Assembly (NCBI RefSeq): GCF_002706425.1
Contig: NZ_CP017713.1
Location: forward strand, 1,178,001 to 1,242,000
Length of the DNA: 64,000 nt
Origin: Loigolactobacillus coryniformis subsp. coryniformis KCTC 3167 = DSM 20001
Lineage (GTDB): Bacteria > Bacillota > Bacilli > Lactobacillales > Lactobacillaceae
Direction of reading: 5' to 3'
Shown piece after piece: positions 16,367 to 61,930 of this stretch. A model generated the notes under the pieces. The model made no database searches. It worked only from the letters and a program-made list of their open reading frames with translations, and was not told where the DNA came from. The number at the start of each line of letters is the position of its first letter. Positions within the stretch are counted from its first letter, which is position 1. A program made the translations under genes and the position numbers.

Positions 16367-16383
16367 TGGAAACAATTCAATAA

Positions 16384-16648
16384 AGCACGTCGAAGGAAAG
16401 AAGCTAAGTAAACATTTATAGTGAGCTGTTGGCCAGTGGGAAACAGTAATGTACTTAGTTGAATGGTTCTGGAGTGCTGCTAGGTGAAAGTAAGTAAGCT
16501 AGCACGGGGAGCGACCGTTACTCGTTGAGTCTATGACTCATTAAGGTTGATGGAGCAATCTATCAACAAATTAAGGTGGTAACACGTAAAGTTAAGCTTT
16601 TCGTCCTTTGACAGCTATTTAGTCAAGGATGAAAAGCTTTTTATTTTT
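16384..16648 (+). ncRNA. T-box leader, methionine-specific, ahead of metNIQ
   Basis: The T-box sequence AAGGTGGTAACACG lies at 16574-16587, followed by a terminator whose arms are AAGCTTTTC-G-TCCTT and AAGGA-T-GAAAAGCTT, then TTTATTTTT. Stem I can be drawn with AGCAC (16384-16388)/GTGCT (16474-16478) and CTAAGTA (16404-16410)/TACTTAG (16452-16458). The specifier loop between them exposes ATG at 16463-16465, the Met codon. The bulge TGGT pairs with an ACCA 3' end, as expected for a tRNA with discriminator A. Uncharged tRNA-Met should therefore allow transcription of the methionine transporter. Confidence 0.92.
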
Positions 16649-27796: not shown

Positions 27797-28285
27797 ATGG
27801 CTAATTTAACAATTAATGAAAAAAATGAAATTATTGATCGTTATCAAGCTAATCCTGAGCAAGCATTGAATATTTTAGTTGATCTACAGTTTGCTTCGAC
27901 TGATGGCTATATTGATCAGAAAACGGCACAGCTAGTTGCTAAACGTGTTGGGGTGACCGAAACACGTATTTATGAGTTGATTAGTTTCTATGCGATTTTG
28001 AAGGAGAAAACTCAGGCACGTTATGTCTTGAAAATCTGTAATAGCGCACCTTGCCGTTTTTCTGGTGAACCATTAGTCAGCCGTAGTCTCAAAGAAATTC
28101 TAGGTGTCAATGAAAATGAGATGACGGCTGATGGTTTGTTCTTATATCATGGGATTCCGTGTGTTGGTGCTTGTGCACAGACCCCCTTTATTAAGATCAA
28201 AGATCGTGTTTTCCCAAATTTAACTGCGCAACAAATCGTTCAATTAATCAGTGATCTTCGTGCTGGTCGTTATCCAGCACTATAG
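27797..28285 (+). CDS. NuoE-like [2Fe-2S] subunit of NAD-dependent formate dehydrogenase
   Basis: 162-residue thioredoxin-like ferredoxin, equivalent to the NuoE/HoxE/gamma subunit of soluble NAD-linked dehydrogenases. The four cluster ligands are in CNSAPC (near residue 81) and CVGAC (near 119). An N-terminal helical region precedes the fold. It passes electrons between FdhA and the flavin subunit. AAGGAAGG precedes the start; a gap of 176 bases separates it from the previous gene, with no clear promoter in it. Confidence 0.9.
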   Translation: MANLTINEKNEIIDRYQANPEQALNILVDLQFASTDGYIDQKTAQLVAKRVGVTETRIYELISFYAILKEKTQARYVLKICNSAPCRFSGEPLVSRSLKEILGVNENEMTADGLFLYHGIPCVGACAQTPFIKIKDRVFPNLTAQQIVQLISDLRAGRYPAL

Positions 28286-28312
28286 TATGGCAATCAGCAA
28301 AATAAATATTGC

Positions 28313-28350
28313 TGTCGCCAACTAAGCTGGTGTTGCTGCTTAGTTGGCGA
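28313..28350 (+). repeat. 13-bp perfect hairpin between NuoE-like and NuoF-like genes
   Basis: GTCGCCAACTAAG (28313-28325) and CTTAGTTGGCGAC (28338-28350) flank a 12-base loop. No T-tract follows, so it is not a standard terminator. An RNA processing or 3'-end protection element within the operon is the likeliest role. Confidence 0.75.
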
Positions 28351-28438
28351 CTAGATCAAGTGAAAAATGAGTCTTAGCGGTAACAGAAAAATTTTAGTAC
28401 AAAATTATCCACTATTGTGGAATAGCGGTGGTGAAAAA

Positions 28439-29740
28439 ATGGTAGTTAGAAATCAAGCCGTTTTAACGGCACGTTTTAATAAATTACAGGCTGATCCCAC
28501 TGATATTGATGCTTTTTGTCAGTTAGATGGTTACGCTGGTTTAAAAAAAGTAGTTGAAATGGACAAAACAGCGGTGTTAGATGAACTTGATCGCGCTGTA
28601 TTATTAGGTCGTGGTGGTGCTGCTTATCCCGCCGGCAAAAAATGGCGTCATCTTTTTTATGCTAAAGGGCAACCTAAATATATTGTCTGTAATGCCGATG
28701 AAGGTGAACCGGGCACATTTAAAGATAAGACGTTGATCGAACATGATCCATTAGCAATCATTGAAGGGATGACGATTGCTGGTTACATGTTTGATTCACC
28801 GCAGGGCTATATTTATATTCGTGGTGAATATCGCAATTTACACCGTTGTTTACGTAAAGCCTTAGTGCAAGCACGGACCGCCAATTTTTTAGGTGAAAAT
28901 ATTCTTGGTATCACTGGCTTTAATTATGATATTAAAATTATTTCTGGCGCCGGTGCGTATGTTTGCGGTGAAAGCTCAGCCTTATTAAATTCAATTGAAG
29001 GGAAGACGGGGCGGCCTCGAGTTAAGCCACCACATTTAGCTGATGTAGGTCTATATCTGCAGCCTACCTTAGTGAATAATGTGGAATCTTATGCCAATAT
29101 TCCGGTGATCATTCGTGAAGGTGGTGCAGCTTTTAAAGCATTGGGTACAGAAAAAGGCGGTGGAACCAAATTAATTTGCTTAACTGGTCATGTTAAAAAT
29201 CGGGGACTGTTTGAAGTTAATCTGGGAACGCCACTTTACGATATTCTGTATTCAGAAAAATATGGTGGTGGCAGTAGTACTGGGCGACCATTGAAATTTA
29301 TCCACTTTGGTGGTCAGTCTGGACCCATTGGGGCGGTAGCGCAACTAAAGGATTGTCTTTATTCTTATGATGGCTTATGGGCCAATAATTTAGCAATTGG
29401 TTCGGGCGCGCTAGTTGTCATGGATGATAGTGTCAGCATTATTGATTATTTAAATAGTGTCGCTGCTTTTTTTGCCCATGAATCTTGTGGTAAGTGTACA
29501 CCTTGCCGAATCGGCACATTACGAATTTTAGAAGCACTAGAAAAATTTCAGAAAAAAGAAGCTGTCCCTGGTGACCTAGAAGTTTTTGAATCGATGTTAA
29601 CGCATGTGACTCAGTTATCTGCTTGTGGGCTTGGCCAATCAGTTGCAACATCTATGGTCAGTAGCTTGAAGCTTTTTCCAGAAGAGTTTGAATTGGCGAT
29701 CAATCGGCAGACAGCTGAGCAGAAGGAGGTTTTGTGGTGA
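28439..29740 (+). CDS. NuoF-like flavoprotein subunit of formate dehydrogenase
   Basis: FMN- and NAD-binding subunit, 433 residues from ATG 28439; an ATG at 28367 would add 24 residues but has no ribosome binding site. FMN/NADH motifs are LGRGGAAYPAGKKW and CNADEGEPGTFKD; the N3-type [4Fe-4S] ligands are in SCGKCTPCRIGT plus a later cysteine in SACGLGQS. It takes electrons from FdhA through the NuoE-like subunit and reduces NAD+. It ends in TGA overlapping the fdhA start. Confidence 0.92.
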   Translation: MVVRNQAVLTARFNKLQADPTDIDAFCQLDGYAGLKKVVEMDKTAVLDELDRAVLLGRGGAAYPAGKKWRHLFYAKGQPKYIVCNADEGEPGTFKDKTLIEHDPLAIIEGMTIAGYMFDSPQGYIYIRGEYRNLHRCLRKALVQARTANFLGENILGITGFNYDIKIISGAGAYVCGESSALLNSIEGKTGRPRVKPPHLADVGLYLQPTLVNNVESYANIPVIIREGGAAFKALGTEKGGGTKLICLTGHVKNRGLFEVNLGTPLYDILYSEKYGGGSSTGRPLKFIHFGGQSGPIGAVAQLKDCLYSYDGLWANNLAIGSGALVVMDDSVSIIDYLNSVAAFFAHESCGKCTPCRIGTLRILEALEKFQKKEAVPGDLEVFESMLTHVTQLSACGLGQSVATSMVSSLKLFPEEFELAINRQTAEQKEVLW

Positions 29741-32454
29741 TGATGGAAACAAAAACAGCAACCGTAATGTTAACAATCGATGGACAAACGGTAACAGTTC
29801 CGGAGGGGACAACATTGCTAAAGGCTGCTGCAATGAACGGAATTGAGATTCCTACACTTTGCCATTTAAAAGAGTTAGCTCCCGATGGCTCTTGCCGGAT
29901 GTGTATGGTAGAAGTTGAAGGTGGTCGCAAAGGTGGCTTAGTGACAGCCTGTTCAGCACATGTGCATGAAGGAATGGTTATTCATACTCAAAATAAAAAA
30001 GTGCGTGACTCACGCCGTTTTGTATTGGATCTGTTGTTAAGTAATCACAAATTAGATTGTTTTAAATGCCCAAGTAACGGTGACTGTAAATTACAAGATT
30101 ATTCTTTGGAATATGGGATGCTTGAAACTAGTTTTCATGGGCAGCGACAACCAGGAAATCAGCAAGACACGACAAACCCGTTTTTTGATTATGACCCAGA
30201 AAAGTGTATCATGTGTCGGCGTTGTTCGCGCGTCTGCCAGTTACGCCAAGGACGTGACGTGATCAGTATTGCCAAGCGTGGATTTGATACCAAAATGATG
30301 CCAGCCTATGGTGAGGATTGGGATCAATCAATTTGTGAATCTTGTGGTAACTGTGTGTCTGTTTGCCCAACTGGTGCACTGGCTTCTAAAGATCAACAAA
30401 AGTTTCGTAAGTGGGCAACTACTAAAATACGAACAACTTGTCCGCATTGTGGCACTGGCTGTCAAGTCGATTTATTAGTTAAAAATAATGTGATCGTTGG
30501 TGCTGAACCAGCTGATGGACCCGCTAATCGTAATTTATTATGCGTAAAGGGAAAGTTTGCGTCTTACAAGTTTGTAGCGTCTGGGGACCGTTTAACGACG
30601 CCTCTGATCAAGCGCCAGGGTCAATTCGTACCTGCTAGTTGGGATGAAGCATTAACCTTGATTGCAGATAAGTTTACGGCGTTAAAACAAAACTATGGTG
30701 GCAATAGTTTAGCTGGGTTCTCTTGCTCGCGTTCGACTAATGAAGACAATTATGTTTTCCAAAAAATGGTACGGACTGCTTTTGGTAGTAATAATGTTGA
30801 TAATTGTGCACGTGTCTGTCATTCGGCAACAGTTCATGGGCTAGCTCATACTTTAGGTAGTGGGGCAATGACCAATACGATCGCAGATATTACCACTGAT
30901 GTTGACGTGATTTTATTGATCGGTTCTAATACTACTGAAGCTCATCCAGTGATTGGATCTCAGATTCGCCAAGCTGTTCAACATGGGACCAAGTTGATCG
31001 TTATCGACCCGCGCAAAATCGATCTAACCAAAAATAGCACAATGCATTTACAGGCTAAAGCAGGTACTAATGTGGCTTTGATCAACGGAATGATGAATGT
31101 AATCATACGCGAAGGGTTGGCCGATCAGGATTTCATTGCTAAACGAACTGAAGGTTACACCGCAATGCGTGAATTAGTGGCCGATTATACACCGGAAAAG
31201 GTAGCCAAGATTTGTGAAATTGAACCTGAAGAAATTATTAATGCGGCGCGGTTATACGCTAAAGCTGGCAAAGCACCAATTATCTATTGTTTAGGGGTAA
31301 CTGAACACAGTACTGGTACCGAGGGTGTGATGAGTATGTCTAATTTAGCCATGCTTGTTGGTAAAATTGGTCGTCCAGGCTGTGGCGTCAATCCATTGCG
31401 TGGACAAAATAATGTTCAAGGAGCCTGTGATATGGGCTGCTCACCATTTGATTTTCCTGGTTATCAAAAAGTAGCTGATAGTAAAACAATTGCCAAATTT
31501 GAAAAGGCGTGGGCAACAAAATTAAATCCCCAAATCGGTTTAACGTCAACACAAGTTTTACCTGCAGCTACACGTGGCGAGATTAAAGGCTTATATATTT
31601 TTGGTGAAGATCCCATTGTGACTGATCCGGATACCTCGCATGTGCGTCACGCCTTAGAATCATTAGATTTCTTAGTCGTTCAAGAATTATTTATGACGGA
31701 AACTGCGGCTTACGCGGACGTGATTTTACCAGGAATTAGTTTTGCGGAAAAAGACGGGACTTTTACTAATACAGAACGGCGAATTCAACGGATTCGTAAA
31801 GCAGTTGCACCGCGTGGTGGTGCGCGTGAGGATTATAAAGTTTTTTGTGAAGTCGCAACGCGGATGGGTTATGCAATGACCTATGATTCACCGAGCCAAA
31901 TTATGGCTGAGATTGCTCAAGTAGTTCCAACTTTTGCCGGGGTCAATTATAAACGTTTAGATATGTTAGGTAGTTTGCAGTGGCCTTGTCGATCATTGGA
32001 TGATCCGGGAACGCCCATTATGCATGTCGGGCAATTTAGCCGTGGATGTGGTTTGTTTATGGCCATTCCATATAAACCAGCTAAAGAATTGCCGGATGCT
32101 ACTTATCCATACCTAATGTCAACTGGGCGAATGTTGTACCAATATAATACTAGAGCAATGACGGGACGAACCGCAGGTATTAATAAATTAGCCAATCATT
32201 CATATATTGAAATCAATTATGAGGATGCTAATCGCTTGGGAATTAAGGATGGCGATAAAGTACAAGTTAGTTCTCGACGGGGTAAGATCCAAACTTATGC
32301 GGCGGTTGGTGATCAGGTAATGCAGAGTTCAGTCTTTATGACTTTCCATTTTCCTGACGGTAACGTTAACGAAATCACCAATCCAGTATTTGATGATATT
32401 GCGATTATCCCTGAATATAAAGTGTGTGCAGTGGCAATTGAGCCAGTGAAATGA
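29740..32454 (+). CDS. fdhA: Formate dehydrogenase catalytic subunit, cysteine type
   Basis: About 904 residues. The N-terminal 220 residues are NuoG-like: a [2Fe-2S] ferredoxin domain (CHLKELAPDGSCRMC), a His/Cys cluster (HKLDCFKCPSNGDC) and two [4Fe-4S] motifs (CIMCRRCSRVC, CESCGNCVSVC). The molybdopterin domain starts at CPHCGTGC. The metal ligand is Cys in ARVCHSATVHG, where many enzymes have selenocysteine. The C-terminal molybdopterin dinucleotide-binding domain holds NRLGIKDGDKVQVSSRRG. Start choice among GTG 29737, ATG 29740 and ATG 29743 is uncertain; AAGGAGG is at 29723-29729. Confidence 0.94.
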   Translation: MMETKTATVMLTIDGQTVTVPEGTTLLKAAAMNGIEIPTLCHLKELAPDGSCRMCMVEVEGGRKGGLVTACSAHVHEGMVIHTQNKKVRDSRRFVLDLLLSNHKLDCFKCPSNGDCKLQDYSLEYGMLETSFHGQRQPGNQQDTTNPFFDYDPEKCIMCRRCSRVCQLRQGRDVISIAKRGFDTKMMPAYGEDWDQSICESCGNCVSVCPTGALASKDQQKFRKWATTKIRTTCPHCGTGCQVDLLVKNNVIVGAEPADGPANRNLLCVKGKFASYKFVASGDRLTTPLIKRQGQFVPASWDEALTLIADKFTALKQNYGGNSLAGFSCSRSTNEDNYVFQKMVRTAFGSNNVDNCARVCHSATVHGLAHTLGSGAMTNTIADITTDVDVILLIGSNTTEAHPVIGSQIRQAVQHGTKLIVIDPRKIDLTKNSTMHLQAKAGTNVALINGMMNVIIREGLADQDFIAKRTEGYTAMRELVADYTPEKVAKICEIEPEEIINAARLYAKAGKAPIIYCLGVTEHSTGTEGVMSMSNLAMLVGKIGRPGCGVNPLRGQNNVQGACDMGCSPFDFPGYQKVADSKTIAKFEKAWATKLNPQIGLTSTQVLPAATRGEIKGLYIFGEDPIVTDPDTSHVRHALESLDFLVVQELFMTETAAYADVILPGISFAEKDGTFTNTERRIQRIRKAVAPRGGAREDYKVFCEVATRMGYAMTYDSPSQIMAEIAQVVPTFAGVNYKRLDMLGSLQWPCRSLDDPGTPIMHVGQFSRGCGLFMAIPYKPAKELPDATYPYLMSTGRMLYQYNTRAMTGRTAGINKLANHSYIEINYEDANRLGIKDGDKVQVSSRRGKIQTYAAVGDQVMQSSVFMTFHFPDGNVNEITNPVFDDIAIIPEYKVCAVAIEPVK

Positions 32455-32474
32455 ATGGGGAAAGGAGCGGGTTC

Positions 32475-33677
32475 ATGATTGAACTAGAACAGGCGATTGC
32501 ATTAGTTACAGGAGCATTATCACCACAAATTGATAGTGAATTGGTTCCTTTAGCACAAGCTAGTGGCCGTGTGACTGCCTGCGCCCTTAAAGCGCCCTTA
32601 GCGGTGCCAAACTTTGTTCGTTCAGCGATGGATGGGTACGCTGTCTACGCTACTGATGTTGTTCGGGCAAGTCCAGAGCAACCAAGACGATTAACTGTTT
32701 TAGGGACGATCTATGCCGGTGATCACATGAGCTATACACCACGAATGGGTACGGCAGTCCGAGTTATGACCGGTGCAGCAATTCCACCGGGTTATGATGC
32801 AGTGGTTAAACAAGAATTAACTGATCAGGGACAAGCTGTTGTACAAATTTATCAACCAATCAAGGCTGGGAAAAATCTGATGCCAATTGGTGAGGATATT
32901 ATCAGTGGACAAGTCGTATTTGAACCGTATACTTACTTGAATGGTGATAGTGTTGGTATATTAGCTAGCTTAGGTTATACGACAGTCCCAGTACTACAGC
33001 GTTTACGTGTTGGTTTGATTGCAACTGGCAATGAATTAGTTATCCCCGGACAGCCACTAGCACCGAATCAGATCTATAACAGCACAATTTATTCTTTAGC
33101 GGCGTATATTGAGCGTACTGGTGGTCAAGTCGTACTACAAACGATTTGTCAGGATAATCCAGCCGAATTAATGGCGTTATTGACGCAAAACAAACAAAAA
33201 GCTGATTTGTTTATTACGACCGGCGGTATTTCTGTTGGAGCAAAGGATTTTATACCGGCAACGCTGACAGCCAATGGAGGGCAACCACTATTTCATTTTG
33301 TGAATTTAAGGCCAGGAACACCGATCTTTGCAGCTAATTGGCAGCATAAATTGATTCTATCCTTGTCAGGGAATCCGTTTGCGGCAATGGTTAATTTTCA
33401 CTTGTTTTATTGGCCATTGTTAGTGCGTTTTCAGCGGAATGAACATTTTAATTTAAAAAAACAAACAGCGCGCTTAGTAGCGGGCAAAATGCCAGCAACC
33501 AGTATGCGCCGTTTTGTACGGGCAAAATTGACCGGAACTGAGGTAGTGATCGATAAAAAGGGGCATTACGCGTCGGTACTGCATAATATGATCGATAATA
33601 ATTGTTTAATTGAACAGATAAAGGGGAAGAGCTTACAGGTCGGCGATCAGGTAACTGTCTATTCATGGCCAGATTAG
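32475..33677 (+). CDS. moeA: Molybdopterin molybdenumtransferase
   Basis: Inserts molybdenum into adenylylated molybdopterin. Start ATG 32475 behind AAAGGAGCGGG gives 400 residues; an ATG at 32451 overlaps the fdhA stop. Family motifs: FVRSAMDGYA, GTAVRVMTGAAIPPGYDAVV, TTGGISVGAKDF and LSGNPFAA. Last gene of the formate operon. The remaining cofactor genes (moaA-E, moeB) and fdhD are not in the window. No convincing terminator follows it on the plus strand. Confidence 0.94.
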   Translation: MIELEQAIALVTGALSPQIDSELVPLAQASGRVTACALKAPLAVPNFVRSAMDGYAVYATDVVRASPEQPRRLTVLGTIYAGDHMSYTPRMGTAVRVMTGAAIPPGYDAVVKQELTDQGQAVVQIYQPIKAGKNLMPIGEDIISGQVVFEPYTYLNGDSVGILASLGYTTVPVLQRLRVGLIATGNELVIPGQPLAPNQIYNSTIYSLAAYIERTGGQVVLQTICQDNPAELMALLTQNKQKADLFITTGGISVGAKDFIPATLTANGGQPLFHFVNLRPGTPIFAANWQHKLILSLSGNPFAAMVNFHLFYWPLLVRFQRNEHFNLKKQTARLVAGKMPATSMRRFVRAKLTGTEVVIDKKGHYASVLHNMIDNNCLIEQIKGKSLQVGDQVTVYSWPD

Positions 33678-33895: not shown

Positions 33896-33924
33896 ATTGT
33901 AAAACGGAATAAGGTAATTGTTAA
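33896..33924 (-). promoter_or_regulatory. Promoter of small peptide gene
   Basis: On the minus strand: TTAACA (33924-33919), 17 bases, TACAAT (33901-33896); five of six bases match at each hexamer. The -35 lies 27 bases from the -35 of the divergent aromatic operon promoter. Confidence 0.7.
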
Positions 33925-33951
33925 GCACTAAATGTTTTTTTCAAAAAAAGG

Positions 33952-33980
33952 TTGACGGGCTCACAGACAGTTGTTATACT
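33952..33980 (+). promoter_or_regulatory. Aromatic amino acid operon promoter
   Basis: TTGACG (33952-33957), 17 bases, TATACT (33975-33980), near-perfect sigma-A. It is followed by an attenuator leader of about 325 bases before the first enzyme gene. Confidence 0.9.
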
Positions 33981-34010
33981 AATTTCATTCAATTCTAAGG
34001 ATTTTTTAAT

Positions 34011-34085
34011 ATGACGCAAGTAAACCGAATGTGTACCCTAATTTCACAATCGAATACGTATTATTACTATTGGTTCTTTAAGTAG
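34011..34085 (+). CDS. Aromatic leader peptide (24 residues, ends NTYYYYWFFK)
   Basis: ATG at 34011 is preceded by TAAGGA (33996-34001) with 9-base spacing. The 24-codon frame ends with four Tyr codons (34059-34070), one Trp (34071-34073), two Phe (34074-34079), Lys and TAG. Seven aromatic codons in a row directly ahead of an aromatic biosynthesis operon is the hallmark of an attenuation leader peptide. The stop codon touches the first hairpin. Its job is inferred to be to sense charged tRNA-Tyr, tRNA-Trp and tRNA-Phe through ribosome stalling. Confidence 0.88.
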   Translation: MTQVNRMCTLISQSNTYYYYWFFK

Positions 34086-34213
34086 TGTCTGCATCGGTAA
34101 GCTAGATGCAGACACGAAGTCTGCATCTATGCGAGCCAATAGTCTTTAAGCGTGTATTAAAAACTTGGCCACATGGATGATTTAAGAAAATCAGCTGTGT
34201 GGCTTTTCTTTTT
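34066..34213 (+). promoter_or_regulatory. Ribosome-mediated attenuator (competing RNA structures)
   Basis: Codon segment ACTATTGGTTC (34066-34076) is complementary over 11 bases (one wobble) to GAGCCAATAGT (34133-34143). Between them lie GTGTCTGCATC (34085-34095)/GATGCAGACAC (34105-34115) and a repeat GTCTGCATC (34119-34127) that can pair with the same central arm. Segment 34135-34149 can alternatively pair with 34157-34169 (12 pairs, a bulge and one mismatch), overlapping the 5' arm of a terminator: GCCACA (34168-34173)/TGTGGC (34198-34203) with inner TGATTT/AAATCA, then TTTTCTTTTT. Model: free codon segment gives termination; a ribosome stalled on aromatic codons gives antitermination. Confidence 0.8.
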
Positions 34214-34251
34214 GGGAACCTTTATTAGGCTATCTCTCTAAGATGAGGTCT

Positions 34252-34295
34252 AAGGTCGCACAGCAAATAACATGTTGTGCGACCTTTTACTTTTA
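34252..34295 (+). terminator. Second strong hairpin before the transketolase gene
   Basis: AAGGTCGCACA (34252-34262) pairs perfectly with TGTGCGACCTT (34276-34286); the tail TTACTTTTACTT is T-rich but interrupted. It could be a second terminator or an mRNA stabiliser next to the ribosome binding site at 34301-34306. Confidence 0.6.
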
Positions 34296-34312
34296 CTTAC
34301 GGAGGGATTTAT

Positions 34313-36346
34313 ATGTTTGATGAAACAGATCAGTTGAGTGTGAATGCATTACGGGCTTTAAGTATTGATATGATTGAGCGGGCAGGGTCAGGACATCCCG
34401 GATTACCTTTAGATGCTGCACCAATGGCTTACGTTTTATATAGTCGTCATTTACGAGTCGATCCACAAGCACCAGATTGGGTCAATCGTGATCGATTCGT
34501 CTTATCAGCAGGGCATGGTTCAGCCTTGCTATACAGCATGCTGCATTTGAGTGGTTTTCCAACCCGTATGGCTGATCTGAAACAATTCCGGCAATTACAC
34601 AGTATGACGCCAGGACATCCTGAACATGGTTTGGTTGCGGGAGTTGATGCAACGACAGGCCCCTTAGGTCAAGGTTTGGGAATGGCCGTTGGGATGGCGA
34701 TGGCGGAAACGCATTTGGCGGCGCAATATAATACGCCAGAACAGAAAGTGATCGATCATTTCACTTATGTGATTTGTGGTGATGGTGACTTGATGGAGGG
34801 AATCTCTCATGAGGCCGCCAGTTTAGCTGGTAACCTAAAGTTAAATAAATTAATTGTTCTGTACGATTCAAACGATGTCTCACTAGATGGTGCGACGGAC
34901 CGTACTTTTTCTGATGACGCCCAACAACGATTTGCAGGTTATGGTTGGGATTACCAAAAAGTAAGTGATGGTAATAATTTGGCGGCAATCGATGCGGCAA
35001 TTACAGCGGCTAAGTTGACAGACGCACCAAGTATGATCGAAATTAAAACCACAATCGGTTATGGCGCACCTAAACAAGGGACTCATTTGGTCCATGGGGC
35101 CCCCTTAGGCCAAACTGATTTGGCGGCGACTAAGCAAAGTCTTGGGTGGCAAGCAGCGCCGTTCACAGTGCCAGCAGCAGTTAAGCAACGGTTTGCTGAG
35201 CGGGTGCAGGAACGTGGCCAGGTGGCTCATCGACAATGGCAAGCATTACTAACCACCTATCAGCAGGCACAACCTAAATTAGCCGCTCAGTTACACCACG
35301 CGTTAGCACAAGAATTGCCAGTTGATTGGCAGAGTGATCTACCTAAATATCAAATTGGGGATAGTGAAGCTGGTCGGATCACGAGTCAAAAGATGATCCA
35401 AGCACTAGCGGCTAAGGTACCTAGTCTCTGGGGTGGTGCAGCTGATCTAGCTTCTTCGAATAAAACGGATATTGCTGCCAGCGGTTCCTTCAGCGCCACT
35501 GCGCGACAAGAACGCAATTTAAACTTTGGTGTTCGTGAATTTGCTGAAGCCGCAGCAATGAATGGCATTGCTTTGCACGGTGGTAGTCATGTGTTCGGTG
35601 GCACGTTCTTCGTTTTCTCAGACTATATGCGTGGTGCAATTCGTTTGGCGGCATTACAAAAATTGCCTGTGACTTATATTTTTACCCATGATTCATTGGC
35701 TGTGGGTGAAGATGGACCAACTCATGAACCGGTTGAACAATTGATGAGTCTACGAGCTATGCCTGGCATCAGTGTGATTCGTCCAGCTGATCCCAATGAA
35801 GCAGTTGCTGCTTGGCGTTTGGCAATGACTACCAATGACCGACCATCGGTGCTAGTATTAACACGGCAGGATTTGGCGGTATTAAAAGGTAGCTTAAATC
35901 ACCCTGACGGTGTCAGTCGTGGCGGTTATGTGATTTCACCACAACAACGTAAACAAGCTGAAGGGATCTTACTTGCGTCTGGTTCTGAAGTTGCTTTGGT
36001 GATCGCCGCCCAACAGCGTTTGCGCAAATTCGGCCATGATGTGGCTGTAGTCTCAATGCCGTGTTTCGATCGGTTCATGCAACAACCAGCGGCTTACCGT
36101 GAAAAAGTATTGCCGCGAAATATTCGCCGGCGGGTATCAATTGAGTTGGGCGCAACACTAGGTTGGGAACGGTTCATTGGTTTAGATGGCTTAAGCCTTG
36201 GTATTGATACCTTTGGTGCTAGTGGTCCTGCTGCTGAAGTCTTGGCGGAATATGGTTTTACTAGTGATGCTGTGGTTGCTGCTTATCAGAAATTATGGCG
36301 GGCCGATAACCGGCTACAAACGCCGATTCGACGGAGTGTGATTTAA
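34313..36346 (+). CDS. tkt: Transketolase
   Basis: Thiamine-diphosphate enzyme of the pentose phosphate pathway; makes erythrose-4-phosphate, a substrate of DAHP synthase. Start ATG 34313 behind GGAGGGATT gives 677 residues. Motifs: GSGHPGLPLDAAPMAYVL near the N-terminus, the ThDP motif ICGDGDLMEGISHEAASLAG, and the pyrimidine domain THDSLAVGEDGPTHEPVEQL. First structural gene of the aromatic operon, with its stop overlapping the aroE start (TAATG). This placement points to dedicated E4P supply. Confidence 0.96.
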   Translation: MFDETDQLSVNALRALSIDMIERAGSGHPGLPLDAAPMAYVLYSRHLRVDPQAPDWVNRDRFVLSAGHGSALLYSMLHLSGFPTRMADLKQFRQLHSMTPGHPEHGLVAGVDATTGPLGQGLGMAVGMAMAETHLAAQYNTPEQKVIDHFTYVICGDGDLMEGISHEAASLAGNLKLNKLIVLYDSNDVSLDGATDRTFSDDAQQRFAGYGWDYQKVSDGNNLAAIDAAITAAKLTDAPSMIEIKTTIGYGAPKQGTHLVHGAPLGQTDLAATKQSLGWQAAPFTVPAAVKQRFAERVQERGQVAHRQWQALLTTYQQAQPKLAAQLHHALAQELPVDWQSDLPKYQIGDSEAGRITSQKMIQALAAKVPSLWGGAADLASSNKTDIAASGSFSATARQERNLNFGVREFAEAAAMNGIALHGGSHVFGGTFFVFSDYMRGAIRLAALQKLPVTYIFTHDSLAVGEDGPTHEPVEQLMSLRAMPGISVIRPADPNEAVAAWRLAMTTNDRPSVLVLTRQDLAVLKGSLNHPDGVSRGGYVISPQQRKQAEGILLASGSEVALVIAAQQRLRKFGHDVAVVSMPCFDRFMQQPAAYREKVLPRNIRRRVSIELGATLGWERFIGLDGLSLGIDTFGASGPAAEVLAEYGFTSDAVVAAYQKLWRADNRLQTPIRRSVI

Positions 36347-37221
36347 TGATCGATGGTAAAACACAGTTATATGGATTCTTTGCGCATCCGGCGCAGCATA
36401 GCTTATCGCCGCTGATGTATAATACCACGTTTGCTGAACAGAAAATCAATGCAGTTTACTTAGCTTTTGATTTTACGGCTGATTTAGCTACTGCGGTTAC
36501 GAGTATGCGGACTTTGAATTTTGGTGGTGCTAATCTATCCATGCCATTTAAGGCACAGGTCATTCCACTATTAGATGAGATTGCACCGGAAGCTAAGTTG
36601 ATCGGTGCGGTCAATACGATCGTCAATCAAAACGGGCGCTTGATTGGCCATAGTACTGATGGTCCAGGATTCTTTGCTGGTTTGGCGCAGCAAGGGCAGA
36701 CTTTTCAGAACGCTCATTTGACAATTTTAGGTGCTGGCGGTGCTGGATTAGCCATTATTGCCGCGGCTGGTCAAGCGGGTGTCACCGCGATCGATGTGTT
36801 TAAGCGGCGTAACGCCACCTACGCGTCAGTAGCAGCCAAATTGACTGAAATCGCCGCGGCGACTAAAGTAACGATTAGATTACATGATTATGCGGCTACA
36901 AATGAGTTGACCGCTGCGCTAAAAAGTAGTGATTTATTGGTCAATGCCACTAATATTGGGATGGGTGCTGGTAGTACAGCGCTACCGATACCACAGACTG
37001 TGTTGACTCAGGTACCACCAACGACTGTAGTCAGCGATGTGATCTATTTCCCTAAAGAAACGGCATTTTTAAAGGCAGCGCGACAGCTCGGACATCCTAC
37101 GTATAATGGATTGCCGATGCTGATCCAGCAAGGTGTCTTAGCTTACAAACTATGGACTGGCGCTGAAATGCCCTTGGCAAAAGTAACCCAAGCATTAGAA
37201 CAACAGCTCTATCAAAAATAA
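36346..37221 (+). CDS. aroE: Shikimate dehydrogenase
   Basis: NADP(H)-dependent reduction of 3-dehydroshikimate to shikimate. N-terminal substrate motif HSLSPLMYN, catalytic lysine in NLSMPFKAQ, nucleotide loop GAGGAGLAI and NATNIGM. Length 291, typical. Translationally coupled to tkt by a one-base overlap. Related YdiB-type quinate/shikimate dehydrogenases share these motifs, but the operon favours AroE. Confidence 0.93.
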   Translation: MIDGKTQLYGFFAHPAQHSLSPLMYNTTFAEQKINAVYLAFDFTADLATAVTSMRTLNFGGANLSMPFKAQVIPLLDEIAPEAKLIGAVNTIVNQNGRLIGHSTDGPGFFAGLAQQGQTFQNAHLTILGAGGAGLAIIAAAGQAGVTAIDVFKRRNATYASVAAKLTEIAAATKVTIRLHDYAATNELTAALKSSDLLVNATNIGMGAGSTALPIPQTVLTQVPPTTVVSDVIYFPKETAFLKAARQLGHPTYNGLPMLIQQGVLAYKLWTGAEMPLAKVTQALEQQLYQK

Positions 37222-37238: not shown

Positions 37239-38243
37239 ATGATGATCATACAATTAAAGACAAATGCAGACGAACAAATTATTGCGGGCTTGATTGCGCG
37301 TTTGGAAGCAACTCCAGCCACTGTTATTCGCATCAAAAACCATTTAGCAATTCCTGAAGTTAAAACGACTGAATTATCTGCTGCTGAAGCGGGTGTAGTT
37401 GCTGAAGTGATTGAAAAAACGCCAGCTGCCGTTTTAGGGAGTCGTTTGTTCCAACCAGAAGATACGATCATTAAATTGCCACATTCTGTGATCGGTGGTA
37501 AAGGTAATTTCACAATGATGGCTGGTCCTTGTTCAGTTGAATCAGAAGAACATGTCCGAAAAATGGCTAAGGTAGCTAAGGCAGGTGGTGCAACGCTATT
37601 GCGGGGTGGTGCCTATAAACCACGGACTTCACCATACAGTTTCCAAGGTTTAGGTGAAGATGGCTTGAAATACTTACGCGAAGCAGCTGATGAAAATGGT
37701 ATGGACGTGATCACAGAAGTTATGGATGAGACTCACGTTGACTTGATTGCTAAGTACACGGATGTTTTCCAGATCGGTGCTCGTAACATGCAAAACTTCT
37801 CATTACTAAAGGCAGTTGGTAAAACTAACGTTCCAGTAGCATTGAAACGTGGTTTAGCTGGAACGGTCGATGATTTATTAAATGCATCAGAATACATTGC
37901 GGCTGGCGGTAATCATCAGATCATGTTGTTAGAACGCGGTATTCGAACGTTCGATAATAAATATACCCGTAATACCTTTGACTTAGCAGCGGTTCCTGTG
38001 TTGCAAAAATTATCCCATTACCCAGTGCTTGTTGACCCTAGCCATGCAGTTGGTGAATGGGATCTAGTTACACCAATGGCCCATGCCGGTGTTGCTTCTG
38101 GTGCTTCTGGTATGATCGTCGAAATTCATGATGACCCAGAACACGCATTTTCTGATGGTCCACAAGCATTGAAGCCAGATACTTACTTAAAGATGACGGA
38201 ACAAGTTTACGCGATTCGTCAATTAATGGATAGTTGGGAATAA
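37239..38243 (+). CDS. aroF: DAHP synthase, type I-beta
   Basis: 3-deoxy-7-phosphoheptulonate synthase: joins PEP and erythrose-4-phosphate, the entry step of the shikimate pathway. The catalytic barrel carries MAGPCSVESEEH, LLRGGAYKPRTSPY, VDPSHAVG and EIHDDPEHAFSDGPQ. An N-terminal domain of about 80 residues resembles the ferredoxin-like regulatory domain of Thermotoga-type enzymes, so feedback control by aromatic amino acids is possible. 334 residues behind TGAGGT. No chorismate mutase domain is fused. Confidence 0.94.
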   Translation: MMIIQLKTNADEQIIAGLIARLEATPATVIRIKNHLAIPEVKTTELSAAEAGVVAEVIEKTPAAVLGSRLFQPEDTIIKLPHSVIGGKGNFTMMAGPCSVESEEHVRKMAKVAKAGGATLLRGGAYKPRTSPYSFQGLGEDGLKYLREAADENGMDVITEVMDETHVDLIAKYTDVFQIGARNMQNFSLLKAVGKTNVPVALKRGLAGTVDDLLNASEYIAAGGNHQIMLLERGIRTFDNKYTRNTFDLAAVPVLQKLSHYPVLVDPSHAVGEWDLVTPMAHAGVASGASGMIVEIHDDPEHAFSDGPQALKPDTYLKMTEQVYAIRQLMDSWE

Positions 38244-38324: not shown

Positions 38325-39413
38325 ATGTTGCAAAAAATTGAAGTTAAGTTACCACAAAAAGAATACCCGATCTACATTGAAAATGGTCTTTTGACGCAAA
38401 TAGGTACCTTGGTGCGGGAGCACTGGACTAAAGTACAGCAAGTTGCGCTGATCAGTGATAGTAACGTTGCACCATTGTACGCAGAAAAGGTGCGGATTCA
38501 ATTGACTAATGCAGGTTTTCAAGTCTATCTTTACACCGTGACTGCTGGTGAAGCAGCTAAATCATTAGGTGTGGCGTCTTCACTGTATGATGAATTATTA
38601 GGTGATGGCTTCACGCGTAGTGCTGGTGTGATCGCGCTTGGTGGTGGTGTGGTCGGTGATCTAGCTGGTTTTGTGGCTTCAACTTTTATGCGCGGTTTAG
38701 CCTTTATTCAAATTCCAACTTCTTTGTTAGCCCAAGTCGATAGTAGTGTTGGTGGTAAAACCGCCGTCGATCTACCGGCGGGTAAGAATTTAGTTGGAAC
38801 GTTCTATCAGCCTGATGCAGTATTGATCGATCCGGCTACGTTGACGACTTTATCGCAGCGTTATTTAGTTGAGGGCTATGCGGAAGTAGTTAAAATGGCT
38901 GCCATTGCCAGCCCTGATTTTTGGCAATTGGTGACCCAAGTCCAATCGGTTGCAGCTATTTTAGATTTGGCTGAAGCATTGATCCAGGCCAGCGTGACTT
39001 TCAAAGCTAAGATTGTTATGGCGGATGAAAAAGAGGGCGGCTTACGACAAATCCTGAATTTTGGTCATACTTTTGGTCATGCAATCGAAGCCGGTGCCAA
39101 TGGTGCTTTGGCGCATGGTGAAGCAATCAGTATCGGCATGGTGGCACTGACGCAGTGTTTTGAACATGCCGGCTTAACGCCAGCGGGGATGACCGCTAAA
39201 TTACAGCAACAGTTAGCTGCCGTTGGGTTACCGCTAACTAGTAAATTAATTGGTCAGGCCGATTTTTATGCGCGAATCGCAAAGGATAAGAAAAATCGGG
39301 GTGGCCGGGTAAACTTGATCTATTTAAAGGCGATTGGCGAGCCAGCTATTTATCCAATGGCTCTGGCAGAATTACCACAATTTGTGGAAGAAAATCTATT
39401 GGCGGTGATGTGA
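38325..39413 (+). CDS. aroB: 3-dehydroquinate synthase
   Basis: Second shikimate pathway step, converting DAHP to 3-dehydroquinate with NAD+ and a divalent metal. The signature GGGVVGDLAGFVASTFMRG is at about residues 104-122, with IPTSLLAQVDSSVGGKTAVD after it; metal ligands are in LNFGHTFGHAIE. 362 residues. The stop overlaps the pheA start. Confidence 0.96.
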   Translation: MLQKIEVKLPQKEYPIYIENGLLTQIGTLVREHWTKVQQVALISDSNVAPLYAEKVRIQLTNAGFQVYLYTVTAGEAAKSLGVASSLYDELLGDGFTRSAGVIALGGGVVGDLAGFVASTFMRGLAFIQIPTSLLAQVDSSVGGKTAVDLPAGKNLVGTFYQPDAVLIDPATLTTLSQRYLVEGYAEVVKMAAIASPDFWQLVTQVQSVAAILDLAEALIQASVTFKAKIVMADEKEGGLRQILNFGHTFGHAIEAGANGALAHGEAISIGMVALTQCFEHAGLTPAGMTAKLQQQLAAVGLPLTSKLIGQADFYARIAKDKKNRGGRVNLIYLKAIGEPAIYPMALAELPQFVEENLLAVM

Positions 39414-40252
39414 TGTCACCACGTTTAGCGGTGTTGGGACCAGCGGGGACCTTTAGTGATATTGCTGCACAACAATATTTGCGTCAGCAGCAGTTTGCTT
39501 GGCAATTGACTTACTATAATTCAATCGATCAAGTAGCAGCTAGCGTGCAGGCAGAAACCGAGTACGCCTTATTACCATTAGAAAATACATTGGACGGCTA
39601 TGTTCAAAATACATTAGCAATTTTAAGTTATGCGGAGCTACAGGTAGTCGGTGAAGCGTTAGTGCCGGTGCGCTTTTCCTTAGCCGCAAATGCTGCTGAT
39701 TTGGCCAGTATTAAGCGGATCTACGTTCAGTTTAAAACCAAGGGACAGTGTGAACGAATCCTAGCGCAGTTACCACAAGCTGAACGTTTGACCACCGAAA
39801 GTAATATGCTATCGTTTAATAAATTACAAACGGCAGCGCACGGCGACGCAGCTATTATTCCTCAATTTCATTTGGCGGAGTTACCAGATACTTTTCTGAA
39901 ATTAGCTGATGTTACCGATACGACTGAAAATTATACTCGGTTTATCGTGGTCAAAAAACAGACTGCTGCTTTGCAACAAGTACAGCCGTGGCAACAAGAT
40001 TTTCGAGCTTTATGTTATATTACGCCGCACACAGATCGGGCTGGCTTATTGAGTGAGATTCTCCAGGAATTTGCCCAGCGACATTTAAATTTGATCTCGA
40101 TCATGTCGCGGCCTACCCGGCGTGAGTTAGGTCATTATCGCTTTTTTATTGAAATCGGTGGTCAAGCCGGCCAATCACCGGTGTTAGCGGATGCTTTGGC
40201 TCAGCTAGCACAACGGCATCACGTGAAGTACCTAGGTAGTTTTAGTCGCTAA
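39413..40252 (+). CDS. pheA: Prephenate dehydratase
   Basis: Converts prephenate to phenylpyruvate for phenylalanine synthesis. N-terminal GPAGTFSDIAAQQY and the TRF motif (ENYTRFIVV) mark the catalytic domain; a C-terminal ACT domain (about residues 195-275) carries MSRPTRR in place of the usual ESRP and is the expected phenylalanine sensor. Start is ATG 39413 or GTG 39410, coupled to aroB. Last gene of the operon; aroA, aroC, aroD, aroK and tyrA are not in the window. Confidence 0.93.
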   Translation: MSPRLAVLGPAGTFSDIAAQQYLRQQQFAWQLTYYNSIDQVAASVQAETEYALLPLENTLDGYVQNTLAILSYAELQVVGEALVPVRFSLAANAADLASIKRIYVQFKTKGQCERILAQLPQAERLTTESNMLSFNKLQTAAHGDAAIIPQFHLAELPDTFLKLADVTDTTENYTRFIVVKKQTAALQQVQPWQQDFRALCYITPHTDRAGLLSEILQEFAQRHLNLISIMSRPTRRELGHYRFFIEIGGQAGQSPVLADALAQLAQRHHVKYLGSFSR

Positions 40253-50456: not shown

Positions 50457-50676
50457 TAAAAAAGACGACTCTTGCGAATCGTCCTAGATGATCTGGTGGT
50501 GCCGTTGCAATTCCGTTTGTATTGAACCCGCAAATTAGCAGGTGGGTTCGGCTATTTACCCATGCTAGCGTCCTCGTGAAAAGGCTGGCTTTGATGAGTT
50601 AAAATTGTCGTTCCCGTATTTAAATTACTTGATCGGTCAACACATTGTGGAAAAATGCGCACACCTCAGAAAATCT
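50457..50676 (-). ncRNA. ssrS: 6S RNA candidate
   Basis: A minus-strand unit of about 200 nt with no ORF, its own promoter and a strong terminator (GACGATTC-GCAA-GAGTCGTC then seven T). Near the 5' end, TTTTCTGAGGTGTGCGCA resembles the start of known 6S RNAs (CTGAGATGTTCGCA in E. coli). That segment can pair with GGCACCACCAGA near the 3' end, forming the closing stem with a bulge. 6S RNA lies close to rarA in Bacillus, matching this neighbourhood. It would bind sigma-A RNA polymerase in stationary phase. A covariance search is needed for proof. Confidence 0.72.
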
Positions 50677-61619: not shown

Positions 61620-61629
61620 AGTTTCAAAG

Positions 61630-61930
61630 CATTGAACAAGCGAGTAGTTGTGGAATCGCGGCATAGAGAAAAAGTGAATTGCTGCAAGCTTTACGCGATA
61701 CACAATGAAGGTAACTTGGGAGCTGTTACTTTGAAATCTAGGTTGTTTAAGTTAGTTTTTATCGCTAATTTGATCTAGAAGTGGTTGGAAAAATTGCTTT
61801 TTTAACCACTCGAGTAGGAGTAGCCGGTAGATAGCCGTTATGATCAATTAAGTGGCGCAGTATGCGCAATTTAGGTGGTACCGCGAATAACAGCATTCGT
61901 CCTATTGATTTAGGACGGGTGCTTTTTTAT
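61630..61930 (+). ncRNA. T-box leader ahead of valS, Val specifier
   Basis: The T-box core TTAGGTGGTACCGCG is at 61871-61885, followed by a terminator with arms AGCATTCGTCCT and AGGACGGGTGCT and then TTTTTT. An AGTGGTT/AACCACT stem lies between stem I and the T-box. Aligning the stem I register with the Met T-box in this window (specifier, three bases, YTGGRAG) puts GTA, a Val codon, at 61711-61713. The TGGT bulge fits a tRNA with discriminator A. Control by uncharged tRNA-Val is therefore expected. Confidence 0.88.

Follow-up and report, generated by a model that had tools for sequence, protein, structure and literature searches.

A putative leader-peptide attenuator with Tyr, Trp and Phe codons and a chain of alternating helices ahead of an aromatic amino acid operon in Loigolactobacillus

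The locus described here raises the question of how the aromatic amino acid operon tkt-aroE-aroF-aroB-pheA of a Loigolactobacillus is controlled. In Lactobacillales, discussion of how genes for aromatic and other amino acids are controlled usually centres on T-boxes, each of which has one specifier codon and so cannot respond to two or three amino acids together. For the 64,000-nucleotide stretch of DNA that was analysed (the window), a sequence-only reading had proposed a trp-type attenuator sensing Tyr, Trp and Phe in front of the following genes:

34313 to 36346, forward strand: transketolase gene tkt, first of the operon (NCBIfam TIGR00232, above cut-off)
36346 to 37221, forward strand: shikimate dehydrogenase gene aroE (TIGR00507, above cut-off)
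37239 to 38243, forward strand: DAHP synthase gene, aroF type (TIGR01361, above cut-off)
38325 to 39413, forward strand: 3-dehydroquinate synthase gene aroB (TIGR01357, above cut-off)
39410 to 40252, forward strand: prephenate dehydratase-like gene pheA (best match NF008865, 170.8 bits, below the cut-off of 219)

A MATE transporter gene follows the operon. Directly upstream of the leader, the stretch 27797 to 33677 carries a moeA-like gene and a formate dehydrogenase alpha gene, the latter above the cut-off of TIGR01591 and accompanied by genes for NuoE- and NuoF-like partners.

Between this stretch and tkt, the elements needed for a translated leader were found in order:

33952 to 33980, forward strand: sigma-70-type promoter TTGACG-17-TATACT with TG before the -10 element (consensus scan and congeneric conservation)
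33997 to 34001, forward strand: Shine-Dalgarno sequence of the leader ORF, AAGGA (from the sequence; AAGGAG in six other congeneric leaders printed)
34011 to 34085, forward strand: leader peptide ORF, 24 codons and a TAG stop (homologous ORF in 72/72 leaders)
34059 to 34079, forward strand: aromatic codon run Tyr-Tyr-Tyr-Tyr-Trp-Phe-Phe, the proposed sensor (from the sequence and the codon table of 72 leaders)

The near-consensus promoter of the earlier reading was borne out. It matches the consensus at 10 of 12 positions; the scan found six promoter-like sites in the surrounding 1 kb with 2.9 expected, and the consensus match alone is no better than chance often gives. TTGAC and TGTTAT are present at the same place in all seven congeneric leaders printed. 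The 24-codon ORF with its own Shine-Dalgarno site and the ending NTYYYYWFFK was likewise confirmed, its product being MTQVNRMCTLISQSNTYYYYWFFK. A short ORF with its own ribosome-binding site thus lies between promoter and operon, and the codon cluster Tyr4-Trp-Phe2 stands ahead of tkt-aroE-aroF-aroB-pheA, both as expected of an attenuator.

Homologous leaders were collected from related genomes. A DNA search detected the leader in seven of eight Loigolactobacillus genomes, the window's own included, with no match in the remaining one (G006); across the family it gave some match in 39 of 397 genomes, the weakest ones being short. A covariance model, R1, was built from 26 aligned leaders (27 were collected and L047 was left out). 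At E ≤ 0.01, R1 matched 166/397 genomes and 23/40 genera of the family and 218/395 genomes and 57/81 genera of the order; most of the matches at E 0.001 to 0.01 count as candidates. In a class-wide sample, 14 of 299 genomes matched at E ≤ 0.001, 13 of them within the order, including the window's own. The only match outside it (G838) carries two leaders (L127 and L140), which it may have acquired by horizontal transfer. A short aromatic ORF was present at the expected place in 33/33 further loci read and in all 17 loci of a second set, L127 among them; detailed reading covered the best-scoring matches and not a random sample. A pattern scan of named genomes returned 22 stretches, of which 4 were from Loigolactobacillus, 3 from Paucilactobacillus and 15 from unrelated taxa. 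The gap limits of that scan were too narrow for several known leaders, and the 15 unrelated stretches were taken for chance.

The comparisons below use 72 leaders, obtained from 80 matches by removing eight rows: L120, L121 and L123 (copies of L026, L029 and L036), L142, L100, L095 and L101 (near copies), and L137 (terminator misplaced). With the best-scoring in-frame start taken in the homologues, the peptides are 13 to 27 codons long, all 72 start with ATG, and 69 have a Shine-Dalgarno sequence matching at least 4 of 6 positions. Tyr and Phe codons are clustered near the end of the peptide in 72/72, so the conserved aromatic codon run that the earlier reading had named as a check was recovered in every leader analysed. 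In the aligned run, codon positions 2, 3, 4 and 6 encode Tyr or Phe in 62, 67, 72 and 66 of the 72 leaders, and the middle position 5 encodes Trp in 38, Ser in 29, Arg in 2, Gly in 2 and Tyr in 1. Sensing of all three amino acids, as claimed from the window's run, is therefore not general: 39 leaders have Trp codons besides Tyr and Phe, and 33 have Tyr and Phe without Trp. Among those read, the Trp-free leaders outside Lactobacillaceae all had FYFSYFR or a near variant.

The leader RNA was found to be strongly structured. The stretch 33990 to 34225 folds with z = -5.99, with 0/200 shuffles as good. Six helices alternate along the leader (A:B, B:C, C2:3, 3:4, 4:5 and 5:6), and a codon lock, 1:2, adds to them; the segments involved are as follows:

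34066 to 34076, forward strand: segment 1, codon side of the 1:2 lock (complementarity, covariation, swap test)
34085 to 34098, forward strand: segment A, beginning at the stop codon and pairing with B (pairing, covariation)
34101 to 34115, forward strand: segment B, pairing with A or C (pairing, covariation)
34119 to 34132, forward strand: segment C, pairing with B, or by its 3' part with segment 3 (pairing, covariation)
34124 to 34139, forward strand: segment C2, the end of C and the start of 2, pairing with 3 (pairing, swap test, covariation)
34133 to 34143, forward strand: segment 2, complementary to the Tyr-Trp-Phe codons (complementarity, covariation)
34165 to 34180, forward strand: segment 3, pairing with C2 or 4 (pairing, covariation)
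34191 to 34210, forward strand: segment 4, pairing with 3 or 5 (pairing, swap test)
34252 to 34286, forward strand: hairpin 5:6, a conserved intrinsic terminator (consensus scan; kept in relatives)

The 11-base complementarity of 34066-34076 with 34133-34143, noted from the sequence at the outset, is complete with one G-U pair. The toggle of A, B and C, which the sequence-only reading had missed, spans 34085 to 34132, and over the 72 leaders the start of A has a median offset of 0 from the stop codon. More than four consecutive segments, all of whose neighbours can pair, were found in the window and in the 72 leaders, as in a his-type relay. The proposed trp-type attenuator therefore held as a leader-peptide attenuator whose codon run pairs downstream, and gave way to a longer chain with a second terminator. 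An alternative hairpin of 34135-34149 with 34157-34169 exists as described, with -7.6 kcal/mol in isolation. As the main antiterminator it was rejected, being weak and without a uniform matching fold among relatives; it is overlapped by C2:3, the main antiterminating pair (34124-34139 with 34165-34179), which has -19.0 kcal/mol as a duplex and the better support of the two.

The intrinsic terminator assigned to 34168-34213 is real in the window, where hairpin 3:4 is followed by a U-run (approximately 34167-34213). The second and more regularly conserved one, 5:6, had been missed; it lies, with a T-rich tract behind it, immediately ahead of the ribosome-binding site of tkt and was the sole terminator returned there by the consensus scan (one found, 0.8 expected). 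Behind 3:4, a U-run (six or more T in 9) was observed in only 30/72 leaders, those of Loigolactobacillus included. For 5:6, a first search (even lengths only, stricter tail) placed a terminator in 56/80 leaders and a second in 80/80, of which that of L137 was judged wrong. Since the T-rich tail was itself a search criterion, its occurrence after 5:6 in 72/72 leaders carries no weight alone, and shuffled sequences were therefore used as a control: a hairpin of -14 kcal/mol or lower with a T-rich tail was found in 72/72 leaders and in 11/216 shuffles.

The helices were also examined for coevolution. The helices of the OFF state, scored on the 80-match alignment, which was fitted to the same structure, were paired in 96.2% of cells, with two-sided changes in 21/25 pairs; 0/500 shuffles scored as high, and slid versions were at most 49.8% paired. 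In a MAFFT alignment of 26 sequences that was not fitted to the structure, two-sided changes occurred in 11/25 pairs. The codon-run helix 1:2 was 98.1% paired, and compensatory changes at 7/9 of its pairs supplied the covariation that the sequence-only reading had called for. Two of its pairs were exchanged almost evenly: pair 17-111 is C-G in 34 and G-C in 32, and pair 15-113 is U-A in 36 and A-U in 33. Helix A:B, which is absent from the covariance model, was 87.0% paired, with 7/11 pairs two-sided. C2:3 was 73.2% paired (core helix 91.6%, outer helix 49.2%); its two-sided pairs were not above shuffles (304/500 as high), although its other measures were, and its support is weaker than that of the OFF helices. 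Mutually exclusive helices with compensatory changes were thus traced from the codon run to the terminator, with C2:3 as the weaker member.

In a swap test over the 72 leaders, the duplex formed by each leader's own two arms was compared with duplexes of arms exchanged between distant leaders. The own duplex was the stronger for all seven helices, each with 0/2000 permutations (own/swapped in kcal/mol: 1:2, -12.8/-6.8; A:B, -13.6/-10.4; B:C, -14.6/-10.9; C2:3, -12.7/-10.2; 3:4, -15.2/-10.4; 4:5, -13.5/-7.3; 5:6, -21.2/-6.5). The results for 3:4 and B:C are partly built in because both helices are in the aligning model, and 5:6 passes by construction because it was defined by folding. For the six control pairs the difference did not exceed about 0.5 kcal/mol, and in two cases, where it was about 0.4 kcal/mol, the permutation result was nominally low (52 and 55 of 2000). 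As relatives, the 72 leaders are not independent: they fall into six clusters, two of which hold 68 members. When each cluster was represented by a single row, reducing the test to six, the direction was the same, chain pairs giving 0.0013 to 0.019 and eight control pairs 0.078 to 0.82. The ORF, the segments and their alternative pairings, and the conservation and coevolution of these are computational observations.

These data bear on a simpler design, a four-segment trp-type attenuator in which 1:2 or 2:3 forms, 3:4 at 34168-34213 is the sole terminator, and A:B:C and 5:6 are incidental. Helix 1:2 is the best supported of all, as this design would have it, and the U-run behind 3:4 in Loigolactobacillus fits it as well. 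It leaves unexplained the low frequency of that U-run across the 72 leaders next to a strong 5:6 hairpin in every one, and the better pairing of 4:5, A:B and B:C within than across leaders. We consider the four-segment design unlikely, though the best surviving of the alternatives.

Somewhat less probable still is an arrest peptide, in which the nascent chain itself would stall the ribosome, for example on a free aromatic compound. TnaC, which stalls on a free compound, provides the precedent. Conservation of the peptide goes further than codon hunger would demand, as in the LN before the run, and the ending FYFSYFR recurs in many relatives outside Lactobacillaceae. Against this, the endings vary by group (WFFK, WFRK, WFMK, YYWSK and WFFHKCL), and the middle Ser or Trp codon and those adjoining it sit in helix 1:2, so that RNA pairing accounts for part of the peptide conservation. 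The gene contexts are those of biosynthesis or uptake, where sensing of starvation is expected.

The reading preferred here is that the leader is a ribosome-mediated transcription attenuator of the tkt-aroE-aroF-aroB-pheA operon, which we regard as very likely; ribosome stalling, the order of folding and the amino acid response are what we infer. Its core idea, a leader-peptide attenuator with an aromatic peptide, is well supported by the comparison of sequences. The 24-codon peptide would be translated while polymerase makes the downstream RNA. If charged Tyr-, Trp- or Phe-tRNA were scarce, the ribosome would halt on 34059-34079, covering segment 1 and leaving A free. A:B could then form, freeing C2 to pair with 3 as the first step of antitermination, and segment 4, freed in turn, would pair with 5; terminator 5:6 would be blocked and the operon read (ON). 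With all three amino acids plentiful, the ribosome would reach the stop codon and cover segment A, upon which B:C, 3:4 and 5:6 would form and transcription would end (OFF). After release of the ribosome, or if the leader were not translated, pairing of the codon run with segment 2 would keep the leader OFF.

To model these states, the RNA was folded by partition function with its 3' end placed immediately ahead of segment 6; where the masked stretches begin and end was chosen by the author. With segment 1 masked, as for a stalled ribosome, the window gave 10.9, 11.7 and 11.8 expected pairs for A:B, C2:3 and 4:5 and 0.3 for 3:4. With A masked, as for a ribosome at the stop codon, B:C and 3:4 had 10.7 and 10.1 expected pairs and 4:5 had 0.9. 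Window RNA starting 30 bases before the codon-run match formed 1:2 and 3:4. For the window, equilibrium folding therefore predicts ON for the stalled state and OFF for the stop and free states. Over the 72 leaders, comparing stalled with free, C2:3 went up in 49 and down in 1, 4:5 went up in 39 and down in 6, and 3:4 went down in 39 and up in 9; 4:5 was higher in the stalled than in the stop state in 26 and lower in 14, and in a close relative (L003) it also folded in the stop state. The predicted pattern is clean for the window and mixed in its relatives, many of which follow it only partly. When untranslated window RNA was folded from 33995, pairing of the Shine-Dalgarno region with 34150-34168 led to 4:5 in place of 3:4. 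For the complete leader, segment 6 included, the minimum-energy fold was 3:4 with 5:6 in all three states; therefore, the switch would have to work by timing.

Gene context, taken as the first long ORF downstream, was read at 60 loci, 59 of them distinct (L042 and L074 are the same place), with gene names given by matching representatives. The first gene behind the leader was aroE at 15 loci, an aminotransferase gene at 14, a gene for a TrpX-like ABC binding protein at 13 (TrpX match of 354 bits, below the cut-off of 390), tkt at 9, a DAHP synthase gene at 7, and a chorismate synthase gene and a PTS EIIC-like gene at 1 each. At the last of these (L034), the leader at 1484-1552 precedes a PTS_EIIC_2 (PF13303) membrane protein gene at 1771-2808, with no aromatic gene; the protein is possibly an uncharacterised transporter of aromatic compounds or shikimate. 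The TrpX-like "tryptophan" binding proteins were observed behind Trp-free Tyr and Phe leaders (L082-L104 and L128-L139, for example L104 at 1766-2743), a hint that some of them may carry Tyr or Phe. One locus, L094, has two leaders of the family, at 161-301 and 1501-1642, approximately 1.3 kb apart.

A wider joint reading, for and against which we see the chances as evenly balanced, is that one homologous relay RNA runs an old, order-wide aromatic regulon of Lactobacillales that covers synthesis, transamination and uptake. As parts of the same reading, the RNA would be ON only with a ribosome on the aromatic codons and OFF if translation is complete or absent. Its specificity would have shifted as base pairs of the codon lock were flipped, with the segment opposite the codon run changing along with it, so that Trp sensing would be gained or lost by compensatory mutation inside the helix as Trp (TGG) and Ser replace each other. 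Enterococcal RNAs filed as small RNAs would be terminated products of the attenuator.

This last part concerns Rfam family RF02863 (sRNA_2410), which differs from the present leader in being filed as a small RNA gene. Its gathering score of 61 was reached by 7/29 homologous loci searched, and the same RNA family therefore occurs in other members of the order; the window itself scored 18.7 bits, and a search of its own genome returned 0 matches. By the main text of PMC5593968, the Enterococcus faecium sRNA_2410 is 195 nt long and was validated on Northern blots with two transcripts; the words "leader" and "attenuat" do not occur in that main text. A trans-acting small RNA, as the entry implies for relatives, would fit the filing, the seven loci at gathering score and the blots. 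A terminated leader would resemble a small RNA, and the translated-looking ORF, the alternative helices with a terminator and the aromatic genes directly downstream all point to a cis-acting leader. The low score of the window also counts against the small RNA; we regard a trans-acting role as very improbable.

Least credible is a T-box or metabolite riboswitch, given the conserved aromatic ORF, the lack of a T-box (RF00230) match on the leader and of any Rfam family there at gathering score, even though T-boxes are plentiful in the window's own genome (44 matches, 16 of them above the cut-off) and the trpB motif (RF04312) matches weakly (21.1 bits in the window and 43.8 bits in L094, gathering score 59). 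The Trp (RF00513) and His (RF00514) leader families likewise gave nothing at gathering score in the window and nothing at E ≤ 5 for 33900-34330. Elsewhere in the window, T-boxes lie at 61623-61907, upstream of a valyl-tRNA synthetase-like ORF, and at 16381-16611, upstream of MetN/MetI-like ABC transporter ORFs (genes named by inspection), and a 6S RNA (RF00013, 60.8 bits) lies at 50486-50675 on the minus strand.

If much of the order shares the leader-peptide relay, it would offer a second way, beside T-boxes, of responding to charged tRNA, one in which a single leader could serve two or three amino acids together, beyond the reach of a T-box. The uncharacterised sRNA_2410 becomes testable as an attenuator, and the leaders offer a natural series for the evolution of attenuator specificity under RNA pairing constraints. 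The relay would also matter for food lactobacilli, whose growth and flavour are influenced by transamination and by how well aromatic amino acids are supplied.

Among known systems, the E. coli trp attenuator has a codon run, mutually exclusive hairpins and a terminator. The present leader is like it in its expected OFF state with or without complete translation, and differs in having more segments, a second terminator hairpin, and Tyr and Phe codons besides Trp. The enteric his attenuator has six alternately pairing segments, A to F, ending in a terminator. A run of regulated codons in the peptide and a relay of more than four segments are shared with it, whereas here the codons are aromatic, their run serves as an arm of the lock helix 1:2, and the stop codon marks the start of A. 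In the ilvGMEDA and thr leaders, a single peptide carries codons of several amino acids that share a branched pathway. In this they resemble both the present leader and the branched-chain ilv leader-peptide attenuator of Staphylococcus aureus, a Firmicute; the latter, as described in the available part of PMC5794164, has branched-chain codons, and the likeness is one of description. With his-gene leader-peptide attenuators also reported in Firmicutes (PMC2965389 and PMC9413887, in the parts available), the earlier statement that no Firmicute example is known holds for the exact design and not for leader-peptide attenuators as such. In the accessible text of PMC8632094, attenuation is proposed for the Acholeplasma uORFC-13-1 motif upstream of aroF, which likewise combines an upstream ORF holding a Phe codon with a terminator ahead of a DAHP synthase gene; compared by description, it belongs to another lineage and is characterised by one or more Phe codons within a U-run in place of a Tyr-Trp-Phe run. 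The trpB motif shares occurrence in Firmicutes, ABC transporter genes, and a P1 stem with a terminator; in the portion of PMC11109978 available it is a riboswitch candidate for which its authors leave a classic attenuator possible. No description of the aromatic leader was found in a literature search that covered mainly openly available papers. Leader-peptide attenuation is thus already known, and what appears new is its putative aromatic relay variant in Lactobacillales.
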